Shown here in pieces: positions 4,235 to 7,201 of a stretch of 7,461 bases of DNA. Numbering within the stretch: the stretch's first letter is position 1; every line of letters starts with the position of its first letter. The translations under genes and the position numbers were made by a program. The stretch covers positions 1-7,461 of the forward strand of contig JAJXXG010000910.1 of the NCBI GenBank assembly GCA_021781255.1, in the 5' to 3' direction. The stretch comes from Acidobacteriota bacterium (GTDB taxonomy: Bacteria > Acidobacteriota > Terriglobia > Terriglobales > Acidobacteriaceae). Under the pieces are notes generated by a model. It ran no database searches. It was not told the origin of the DNA and saw only the letters and a list, made by a program, of their open reading frames with translations.

Positions 4235-7201
4235 ATGATGCTTGCGAAGTGGCAATTCACCGTGACGCTGATCGCCCTCGACAAGCTGCTGCGCGTGTCG
4301 GCATGGCGACACCCCGAATTCCGCGCGCGGTTAAAGCAGAAGAACTTTACCGCTGAGATCAAGCTTCGCGACAACTCTCAGGGGCGTTTTTTCCGCTTCG
4401 AGAACGGAAATGTCCGATCGAAGGCAGGCGTATGGCCGTCCGATGTAAGCATGGCCTTTCAAAGTGCCGAGCTGGCCGCGCGATTGTTGAAGCCGAACAG
4501 GAAGCAACTCGATTTTCTGCACGCGGCGAAGAACTTTCAGCTCGAGGTTCAGGGGCCGGACGAGCTCGCCGTCTGGTTTTCAGAGACCTTGAACATGCTG
4601 CTCACTGTGGGGGCCGGCTACGGCGTCGATATGGGCGGCGGCGTGCGCCGCTACACCAGCAACACCAATGGCGGGCCGGTCTTCGTATTCGTGAAAGATG
4701 GAAAGATCCTGCGCATAACTCCCATCGAGTTCGATAAGGAAGACGCAGAGCCCTGGACGATCCGTGCCCGCGGAAGGCAATTCACTCCGCCGCGCAAGAC
4801 CACCGTCAGCAGCCACACGCTGGCCTGGAAGTCGATGGTCTACTCGCCCGACCGCCTGCTGTATCCGATGAAGCGCGTGGACTTCGACGCCAGGGGCGAG
4901 CGCAACCCGCAGAATCGCGGCATTTCAGCATACGAGCGCATCAGTTGGGATGAAGCGCTCGACCTGGTTGCCGGCGAAATTCAGCGCGTCAAACGCGAAC
5001 ACGGGCCGGGCGCGATCATGAACGGCAGCGGTTCGCACCACACCTGGGGAGCGCTGGGCTACTGGTTGAGCGCGCGCCTCCGCTTCTTCAACACCATTGG
5101 CGCCACCTACGTCGCGCATAACCCTGATAGCTGGGAGGGCTGGTACTGGGGCGCGGCGCACCACTGGGGCTACTCCGCCCGCAACGGCGGCGGCGAGACC
5201 TACGGCACGGTGGAGGACTGCTTGAAGAACGCCGAGATGGTGGTGTTCTGGTCTTCCGATCCCGAGGCGACGAGCGGCGTGTATGGGGCGCACGAGGCAA
5301 CCATCCGCCGGCAGTGGCTCAAAGAACTGGGCATTCCCCTGGTGCACATCGATCCGTACTATAACCACACCGCGGCATGGCTGGGGGGTAAGTGGCTGGC
5401 TCCGCTCCCGGGAACCGACAGTGCGATGGTGCTGGCGATTGCCTACGTGTGGATGGCCGAGGAGCTTTACGACAAGAAATATGTTGCCGAGCGCACACAC
5501 GGCTTCGAACTGTGGCGCGACTACGTGATGGGCAAAGAAGACGGCATCGCCAAGACCCCCGAATGGCAGGAGAAAGAAACGGGGGTGCCGGCAAAGGATG
5601 TCCGCGCGCTGGCGCGCGAGTGGGGCAGAAAAAGAACATACCTTGCCGCAGGCGGCATCAACGGCTTCGGCGCTGCCTGCCGCACCGCGACTGGCCACGA
5701 TTGGGCGCGCGGCATGGTGTGCCTGATGGCGATGCAGGGGCTTGGGAAACCCGGAGTGAACATTGGCTGCCTGCAGCAGGGGGCGCCGGTCGACACGCGC
5801 TTCTTCTTTCCGGGCTACTCCGAAGGCGGCCTCTCGGGCGACCTCGCCGGTACTGCGATGTCGATGAACCTCTACCAGAAAATGCCGCAGTTGCCCACCA
5901 TGAACACCGTGCAGCAATTGGTGCCGCGCCTGAAGATTCCCGAGGCCATTGTTGATGGAGAGTGCGTGGGCTACCCCACCGATCCGCGCACCATCGAAGG
6001 ACAGTTTTTTAAGTTCAGCTATCCAGCGCCGGGCCACTCGCCGGTAAAGCTCTACTACAAATATGGCGGCTCGCACTTCGGCACCATGACCAATACCAAC
6101 CGCTATGTAAATATGTACCGCACCGACAAGCTGGAGTTCGTGGTGAACCAGTCGATCTGGTTCGAGGGCGAGGCCAGGTTCGCAGACGTGATCCTGCCGG
6201 CGTGCACCAGCTTTGAGCGGTGGGATATCAGCGAGTTCGCAAATTGCGGCGGTTACATTCAGCACTCGTTCACGCAATGCAATCATCGCGTGGCGGTGAT
6301 GCAGCACAAGTGCATTGAGCCGCTGGGCGAATCAAAGTCGGACTTTCAGATCTTCCTGGAACTCGCAAATCGCCTGGGTGTGGGAGCGAACTTCTCAGAG
6401 GGTTCGACGGAGCTGGACTGGTGCAGACGCTACTTCGAGGCGACCGATCTGCCGAACAAGATCGGTTGGAAAAAATTCCTGAAGAAGGGCTACTACGTGG
6501 TGCCGGCGCCGCCGGAAGAACTCCGCGACCCCGTCTCGTTTCGCTGGTTTGCCGAAGGCCGCGCGAAAGACACGCCTGAGCTGACGCCGTTGCCGGGAGA
6601 TTATTCAGGCGCTTTTCGCAGGAGCCTGCAAACCCAGACCGGAAAGCTGGAGTTCGAATCCTCCAGCCTGAAGCGCTTCGCTCCCGACGATGCCGAGCGC
6701 CCGCCGCTGCTCAAGTACGTTCCTGCGTGGGAGGGGCCGCACGCCAAAGAGCTGTACGAGAAGTATCCGCTGCATCTGGTTTCACCGCATCCGCGTTATA
6801 CCTTCCACACGCAGAGCGATGGCAAAGAAAGCACGATCAATGACGTGAGCGATCACCGGCGGCTGGTCGACGGGCATTACTACTGGGTTGCGCGCGTCAA
6901 CTCAGCCGACGCGAAGGCGCGCGGCATCGGCGAGGGAGGCCTGGTGAAGATCTTCAACGATCGCGGCGCCGTCATTTGCGCAGCACAAATTACTGACCGC
7001 GTGCCGAAAGGCGTTGTGCATTCGTATGAATCTTCTGCGGTGTACGACCCGGTAGGAGAGCCGGGCAAGTCGGCCGATCGCGGCGGCTGTATCAACATTC
7101 TTACGCCGAGCCGCATGATGATCGAGAAGTCGCACAGTATCGCCGCCTGTTCCTGCCTTGTTCAGGTTGAGCCATGGAGCGCTGCGGAGGCGACAGCATG
7201 A
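4235..7201 (+). CDS. Transhydroxylase-like molybdopterin oxidoreductase large subunit with N-terminal SCP2-like domain
   Basis: A 988-residue DMSO-reductase-family subunit. From about residue 138 to the end it aligns, by my recollection of the sequence, almost throughout with the alpha subunit (AthL, 875 residues) of Pelobacter acidigallici pyrogallol-phloroglucinol transhydroxylase, which moves hydroxyl groups between phenols without net redox change. The Mo-ligand serine is S299 in HNPDSWEGW, with D298, H268 in SHHTWG and Y528 in FPGYSEGG matching Pelobacter S175, D174, H144 and Y404; the His-Ser (31) and Ser-Tyr (229) spacings are identical. As in that enzyme there is no N-terminal Fe-S cysteine motif and no Tat signal, so it is cytoplasmic and bis-MGD dependent. 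Residues 1-125 look like an SCP2 lipid-binding domain, absent from Pelobacter. An in-frame TGA at 4223 limits the start to 4235 or 4238; the ribosome site is weak. Substrate uncertain. Confidence 0.85.
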   Translation: MMLAKWQFTVTLIALDKLLRVSAWRHPEFRARLKQKNFTAEIKLRDNSQGRFFRFENGNVRSKAGVWPSDVSMAFQSAELAARLLKPNRKQLDFLHAAKNFQLEVQGPDELAVWFSETLNMLLTVGAGYGVDMGGGVRRYTSNTNGGPVFVFVKDGKILRITPIEFDKEDAEPWTIRARGRQFTPPRKTTVSSHTLAWKSMVYSPDRLLYPMKRVDFDARGERNPQNRGISAYERISWDEALDLVAGEIQRVKREHGPGAIMNGSGSHHTWGALGYWLSARLRFFNTIGATYVAHNPDSWEGWYWGAAHHWGYSARNGGGETYGTVEDCLKNAEMVVFWSSDPEATSGVYGAHEATIRRQWLKELGIPLVHIDPYYNHTAAWLGGKWLAPLPGTDSAMVLAIAYVWMAEELYDKKYVAERTHGFELWRDYVMGKEDGIAKTPEWQEKETGVPAKDVRALAREWGRKRTYLAAGGINGFGAACRTATGHDWARGMVCLMAMQGLGKPGVNIGCLQQGAPVDTRFFFPGYSEGGLSGDLAGTAMSMNLYQKMPQLPTMNTVQQLVPRLKIPEAIVDGECVGYPTDPRTIEGQFFKFSYPAPGHSPVKLYYKYGGSHFGTMTNTNRYVNMYRTDKLEFVVNQSIWFEGEARFADVILPACTSFERWDISEFANCGGYIQHSFTQCNHRVAVMQHKCIEPLGESKSDFQIFLELANRLGVGANFSEGSTELDWCRRYFEATDLPNKIGWKKFLKKGYYVVPAPPEELRDPVSFRWFAEGRAKDTPELTPLPGDYSGAFRRSLQTQTGKLEFESSSLKRFAPDDAERPPLLKYVPAWEGPHAKELYEKYPLHLVSPHPRYTFHTQSDGKESTINDVSDHRRLVDGHYYWVARVNSADAKARGIGEGGLVKIFNDRGAVICAAQITDRVPKGVVHSYESSAVYDPVGEPGKSADRGGCINILTPSRMMIEKSHSIAACSCLVQVEPWSAAEATA
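7186..7190 (+). promoter_or_regulatory. Ribosome binding site for the small subunit
   Basis: GGAGG lies inside the 3' end of the large-subunit gene, seven bases before the ATG at 7198. With the ATGA stop/start overlap it supports coupled translation of the two subunits in equal amounts. Confidence 0.85.

Follow-up and report, generated by a model that had tools for sequence, protein, structure and literature searches.

In a 7,461-nucleotide stretch of DNA from an Acidobacteriota bacterium (contig JAJXXG010000910.1 of assembly GCA_021781255.1; this whole stretch is referred to as the window) we identified a single gene, at 4235-7201 on the plus strand, whose one uninterrupted protein of 988 aa joins an N-terminal SCP2-like domain to the large subunit of a pyrogallol hydroxytransferase-type molybdenum enzyme. 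Both parts are of known kinds; what is new is that they are joined, in a conserved clade whose members also share a residue change. The fusion, the single clade, the residue change and the gene neighbours were observed directly, and the fold of the front domain was obtained by model. The encoded protein would be the large subunit of a pyrogallol-phloroglucinol-type enzyme that hydroxylates or transhydroxylates phenols without O2, and its clade appears to have gained and kept the SCP2-like domain. We tentatively favor, at somewhat less than an even chance, a subfamily in which this domain handles a phenol more hydrophobic than pyrogallol; we infer the ligand, the substrate and the reaction.

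Composition of the fused protein

The preliminary description of the window had placed an extension before a transhydroxylase-type enzyme in one uninterrupted frame, and our searches confirmed this, with the catalytic match beginning at residue 135 and the fusion recurring in 80 of 80 genome loci. The features are as follows:

4235..7201 (+): whole gene, SCP2-like domain plus pyrogallol hydroxytransferase-type molybdenum large subunit, 988 aa (open reading frame (ORF), PDB and Pfam matches)
4235..4612 (+): SCP2-like domain, residues 1-126 (AlphaFold models, fold comparison, conservation)
4613..4636 (+): linker, residues 127-134, with invariant Gly130 (alignments, full-length model)
4637..7183 (+): catalytic part, residues 135-983 (1067 bits to PDB 4v4c; PF21423, PF00384 and PF01568 over cut-off)
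5063..5065 (+): Trp277, at the position of Pelobacter Arg153 (alignment; aromatic in all fused proteins tested)
5126..5131 (+): Asp298-Ser299, at the positions of Pelobacter Asp174-Ser175 (alignment)
7198..7461 (+): 4Fe-4S small-subunit gene, truncated by the window end (ATG overlapping the large-subunit stop; Pfam matches of the truncated piece below cut-off)

Residues 135-983 aligned to residues 2-869 of the Pelobacter acidigallici pyrogallol hydroxytransferase large subunit (56% identity) and contained the AhtL-like_1st, Molybdopterin and Molydop_binding domains, that to PF21423 (AhtL-like_1st) scoring 107.4 bits against a cut-off of 27. Full-length homology and PF21423 were thus both found, as was an adjoining 4Fe-4S small-subunit gene, and the two overlapping genes form what, judged from their sequences, is the two-subunit layout of transhydroxylases. 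Of the 81 sources in the neighbor table described below, 50 had a 4Fe-4S gene of one cluster (c0). The Pelobacter enzyme resembles the fused one in that the key residues are kept and a 4Fe-4S partner gene follows; it differs in having no SCP2-like domain, in carrying Arg153 where the fused proteins have Trp, Tyr or Phe, and in lying outside the fused clade.

The front residues had also been read as SCP2-like, and the fold bore this out: in AlphaFold models residues 1-126 formed a separate domain (two helices, four strands, two helices, a strand and a long helix) with the fold of SCP2 proteins, its top matches being SCP2-type structures in both Foldseek and VIA-align. The full-length model had a pLDDT of 78.9 and a pTM of 0.82, with 10-residue pLDDT means of 76-94 over residues 1-120, 84 for residues 121-130 and 95 for residues 131-140. 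PDB sequence searches with the front domain returned no SCP2 match, and fold comparison alone revealed the relationship. The expected Pfam SCP2 (PF02036) match was seen in the window protein, but at 14.5 bits it lay under the curated cut-off of 21.3 bits, and because that score was not reached we call the domain SCP2-like and not a PF02036 member. PF02036 matched 19 of 67 members at E ≤ 1 (best E = 0.0017), and Pfam Alkyl_sulf_C also matched four of the 67 at this threshold. A profile of the domain compared with eight ordinary SCP2 proteins gave E = 1.4e-4 (probability 53); inclusion of a Pseudomonas aeruginosa relative described below gave 6.9e-9, and we use the figure without it. Residues 38, 40, 42, 53, 55, 71, 73 and 75 were hydrophobic in every row (fraction 1.00) and the strands alternate hydrophobic and polar residues, a pattern that would fit a lipid-type cavity and equally any protein core; Lys99 was invariant and Asp46 and Arg51 nearly so.

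The top Foldseek matches were UbiJ SCP2 domains (18–21% identity), which in excerpts of PMC6747719 bind ubiquinone intermediates, and this favors a different reading, in our judgment quite improbable, in which the domain docks a lipid quinone as acceptor and the enzyme is a water-using phenol hydroxylase passing electrons via the 4Fe-4S subunit to the respiratory chain. The related resorcinol hydroxylase, for which excerpts of PMC10100899 name resorcinol as the electron donor of an anaerobic respiration, would agree with it. The UbiJ link is weak, however, because VIA-align placed other SCP2 proteins above UbiJ; in addition, the domain sits on the molybdenum subunit and not on the Fe-S one, and we found no support for any quinone site.

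Spread of the fusion and the change at Arg153

A scan of bacterial and archaeal genomes gave at least 597 pattern stretches, 595 of them confirmed relatives, and we retained the best 80 as genome loci. Surveyed for the same fusion, all 80 kept relatives carried the extension and matched from query residue 1-20 onward, with mean identities to the window of 43% in the extension versus 69% in the enzyme. By their tree labels they belong to Acidobacteriota, Actinomycetota, Bacillota, Chloroflexota, Myxococcota, Thermodesulfobacteriota and Pseudomonadota. When residues 1-134 were searched against proteins, in a way that could not return standalone domains since candidate lengths follow the whole protein, there were 46 matches, and each of these proteins had the first two transhydroxylase domains (P0046 covered just 46% of the query). 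Among 7994 scored candidates the catalytic part had at least 6034 matches at E ≤ 1e-20, fused and unfused forms not being separated, and 119 of the 120 such matches listed were longer than 960 aa. A PF21423 search of 12 genomes gave 27 matches, 17 in long frames (986–1072 aa) and ten in short ones (840–897 aa); in the same genomes the domain profile hit 17 places in long frames and two standalone small proteins, both in one genome.

In a tree of the catalytic part (93 rows, a quick method with no bootstrap, midpoint root) the 83 fused rows formed a single group with SH-aLRT support of 100. Adjoining it was an unfused pair in which the Pelobacter enzyme is joined by a protein of 854 residues from genome G002 (98 for the pair, 90 for its join with the fused group), and the remaining unfused types branched farther out; the Pelobacter row is on a long branch and its placement is less sure. 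The simplest reading of these sequences would be a single gain of the domain, retained since. That the extension is instead an open frame by chance, or results from a wrongly placed start, as the sub-threshold Pfam score might suggest, we regard as having a negligible probability: it is present in all 80 kept loci, its dN/dS, computable for two of four comparisons, was 0.22 and 0.24, indicating purifying selection in both pairs, and the model has an SCP2-like fold. We therefore rejected this explanation.

We examined the pocket in two partly overlapping sets, a loci set of 81 proteins and a set of 245 proteins from protein searches (124 with the domain and 121 without). The roles of the Pelobacter residues are reportedly those of a 2004 crystal structure paper; we take His144, Tyr152, Asp174, Ser175, Trp176 and Tyr404 to be catalytic, Ser175 (window Ser299) being presumably the molybdenum ligand, and Arg153 to be a pocket residue. 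The six catalytic residues were unchanged in 81 of 81 loci-set and 124 of 124 fused proteins. The window protein has Trp277 and not Arg at the Arg153 position, and all 81 of the loci set were aromatic there (Trp 40, Tyr 38, Phe 3), as were all 124 fused proteins of the second set (Trp 121, Phe 3), whereas Arg was kept in 117 of the 121 unfused Pelobacter-like proteins. The four others had Phe (P0070), His, Leu and a gap; as P0070 starts inside the catalytic part, we take it to be, probably, a truncated fused protein. Nine unfused proteins of several types had one Arg, five Lys and three Pro at this position. At the position of Pelobacter Trp354 the 124 fused proteins have Phe, and most of the wider 81 have either Phe (46) or His (22). 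The change from Arg to an aromatic residue would suit a less polar ring substituent.

Neighboring genes and the candidate substrate

The neighbor table comprised ORF clusters within ~6 kb in 81 sources, with Pfam run on one representative per cluster; a longer antisense ORF hid the main gene in L015, L047, L071 and L072, and the antisense cluster c1, found in 18 loci, is presumed to be a shadow of the Fe-S gene. The clusters included SDR (16 sources), cyclase (11), 3-hydroxyacyl-CoA dehydrogenase (3HCDH; 9), cupin (9) and BKACE (8) proteins. In a hand-picked census of anaerobe-type loci (133 of 192 ORFs from 33 loci) we counted SDR 10, cyclase 8, 3HCDH 8, sigma-54 activators 7, ABC transporters 7 and BKACE 6; this census, like a Pseudomonadota one given below, omits ORFs of less than 140 or more than 700 aa, those of odd composition, and clusters c0, c1, c19 and c21. 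In six of the 81 sources (L003, L006, L007, L013, L028 and L032) SDR, cyclase, 3HCDH and BKACE occurred together (the cyclase of L003 being in two pieces and that of L032 half masked), and these four families are the phloroglucinol pathway genes of Clostridium scatologenes in excerpts of PMC10470551, where the Trp and Tyr of a Trp-Pro-Tyr stretch mark dihydrophloroglucinol cyclohydrolase.

These neighbors favor another explanation, possible in our view and yet doubtful, in which the enzyme is an ordinary di- or trihydroxybenzene enzyme carrying out a step of sequential transhydroxylation to phloroglucinol, and the domain, without binding any substrate, serves as a scaffold for docking to partner enzymes or to the membrane. 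Trp-Pro-Tyr was found in eight of the 11 cyclase loci, Lys99, Asp46 and Arg51 could be contact residues, and the BKACEs of L003, L006, L013 and L028 scored 383–416 bits to 3,5-dioxohexanoate:acetyl-CoA acetone transferase, just under its cut-off of 430. However, the two others of the six BKACEs tested (L004 and L007) fit another subfamily, and the cyclases of L026 and L044 lack Trp-Pro-Tyr (that of L032 is masked there). A scaffold would also leave unexplained the Arg153 change, the outer-membrane protein genes of aerobes described below, and the contig of G002, where an unfused Arg153 enzyme, 65% identical to that of Pelobacter, lies together with a fused one. Because a Pelobacter-like Arg153 enzyme coexists with it on the same contig, the fused enzyme of G002 probably has a different job. 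L001, the nearest relative of the window, has a methylenetetrahydrofolate reductase, FolD and a URO-D-type protein nearby, from which we infer a fit to aryl O-demethylation as a source of polyphenols.

Several transhydroxylase types also coexist in sulfate reducers. In 97 genomes searched as relatives of G008 (a Desulforhopalus genome, the one in which the domain itself was profile-tested) PF21423 was found in 18 and a long frame in 11, a high-scoring match of G040 in a frame of just 530 aa being excluded from the long forms. Ten of these 11 also had a frame of ~840 aa (796–852) and one of 878–946 aa, and in five of the ten all three types were on one contig (G008 C78, G015 C13, G023 C10, G027 C2 and G052 C47). 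Several transhydroxylase-like enzymes per organism fit stepwise transhydroxylation, which is recorded for Pelobacter massiliensis according to the title of a paper cited in PMC8084988.

Plasmid loci, mostly of aerobes, had other neighbors. Our search matched 252 plasmid records; among the 30 listed, eight were more than 50% identical and a ninth 30%. The front domain was present in all eight, and in Sinorhizobium terangae (L134 10058-12001) it has a reading frame of its own, ~1.4 kb upstream of that for the catalytic part. Seven of the eight had acyl-CoA synthetase, VOC-type and FAH-type genes near the fused enzyme (no such acyl-CoA synthetase was found in the Salipiger plasmid locus), and seven had an outer-membrane protein of FadL type (L129, L132, L134 and L135) or OmpW type (L130, L131 and L136), the assignment being Pfam-confirmed on L129, L130 and L132; neither was found in L133. 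The FadL and OmpW families admit hydrophobic compounds, pointing to hydrophobic phenols in these loci. The Pseudomonadota census (133 of 179 ORFs, hand-picked from 33 loci) gave FAA_hydrolase 6, the commonest among the 25 of 128 families listed, VOC 4 and homogentisate dioxygenase 3, and because of these FAH-type, VOC and homogentisate dioxygenase neighbors the product in aerobes seems to meet a dioxygenase and a hydrolase. In four loci of marine-type Alphaproteobacteria (L056, L061, L065 and L066) homogentisate dioxygenase and fumarylacetoacetase clusters immediately precede the fused enzyme (Pfam was run for L065 and L066), and in three of these a cytochrome P450 cluster follows it.

Standalone relatives of the domain were found in two organisms; these belong to the same domain family and are unfused. 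One is the 130-aa P. aeruginosa protein WP_003096629 (L149 4007-4399; hhalign E = 2.6e-19 over 118 columns), whose gene adjoins two rubredoxins and the rubredoxin reductase AlkT, and the others are two proteins of Desulfosarcina widdelii (profile E = 1.8e-22 and 6.4e-19), where a small SCP2-like protein directly precedes a glycyl radical enzyme and its activase (L169 7529-11678). As a hint of hydrophobic substrates we found these weak and set them aside, the rubredoxin/AlkT neighborhood being offset by one of sulfopropanediol dehydratase type.

The proposal that the substrate is more hydrophobic than pyrogallol, made in the preliminary description, is thus plausible, and the evidence on it is mixed. 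Its support lies in the replacement of Arg153 by an aromatic residue and in the FadL or OmpW genes of seven of the eight plasmid loci. Several observations weigh against it, besides the Pfam score noted above. The Arg153 change and the fusion fall on the same branch, so their link is one event, and the eight plasmid loci represent about four lineages and not eight independent cases. FadL and OmpW queries (tblastn, E ≤ 1e-6) matched none of the 80 genome loci, within at most ~6 kb per side and with the proviso that distant members could escape, as the Pfam counts of the Pseudomonadota census suggest; the same searches found acyl-CoA synthetase, FAH and VOC genes in two loci each. The phloroglucinol-pathway neighbors of the six loci fit a small polar ring, pointing to small polyphenols, and the D. 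widdelii glycyl radical enzyme passes the cut-off for sulfopropanediol dehydratase (1141.6 versus 1000), which has a polar substrate.

If the hydrophobic-phenol reading is correct, a phenol, or a phenolic partner, of greater hydrophobicity than pyrogallol would enter the cavity of the SCP2-like domain and be handed over to the molybdenum site, where, with an aromatic residue in place of Arg153, a hydroxyl would be added or moved; the 4Fe-4S subunit would handle the electrons, and the ring of the product would then be cleaved, hydrolytically in anaerobes and by dioxygenases in aerobes. One residue and one domain would then separate these enzymes from true pyrogallol transhydroxylases, and a domain that handles hydrophobic phenols would give access to phenolic lipids without O2 in sediments, soils and rhizobia. 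A bolder extension, which we consider rather unlikely, is an unrecognized and widespread class of enzymes that hydroxylate phenolic lipids without O2, the molybdenum equivalent of UbiT/UbiU in both anaerobes and aerobes, in which the domain would pull long-chain or otherwise hydrophobic phenols (alkylresorcinol-like) from membranes to the re-shaped molybdenum site.

Related systems and other genes of the window

The nearest working analogy to the fused enzyme may be UbiT/UbiU, in layout and not in descent. In excerpts of PMC6747719 UbiT works for a hydroxylase that needs no O2, and two Zymomonas mobilis genomes encode it as a fusion with UbiU, so UbiJ and UbiT resemble the front domain as SCP2 folds serving aromatic hydroxylation; UbiU and UbiV, however, are [4Fe-4S] proteins of another family, unlike the molybdenum enzyme described here. 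An SCP2-type domain is also fused to an enzyme in the alkylsulfatases SdsA1 and Pisa1, but there it is C-terminal and on a hydrolase of another family, whereas here it is N-terminal. Resorcinol hydroxylase RhL is a Ser-coordinating MopB protein that excerpts of PMC10100899 unite with PgtL as the hydroxylating RhL/PgtL family, and we liken it to the fused enzyme by that family description.

The preliminary description knew of no enzyme with this arrangement, and our searches agree: no open-access paper was found containing both 'transhydroxylase' and 'SCP2', subscription papers lying outside the search, and open-access searches on related word pairs gave, among the matches listed, no paper about such a fusion by title or start of abstract. 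Database entries listed for these proteins mark molybdenum-enzyme domains only, under names such as TMAO reductase, molybdopterin oxidoreductase or pyrogallol hydroxytransferase, and leave the front domain unmarked; the enzyme type is thus common and its front domain invisible in those entries.

Three other features precede the gene in the window. Just upstream, 3961-4113 is a remnant, the start of a protein that is FAD-binding-like by eye and has an in-frame stop after 51 residues. An NADPH-dependent FMN reductase-type protein with a weak zinc-ribbon match is encoded at 2749-3705, and as a relative of it is also near the nearest homolog L001 (11199-11903), it may belong to the same pathway as the fused enzyme. 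On the minus strand, 1102-2595 encodes the hydroxysqualene dehydroxylase HpnE, over the NCBIfam cut-off.

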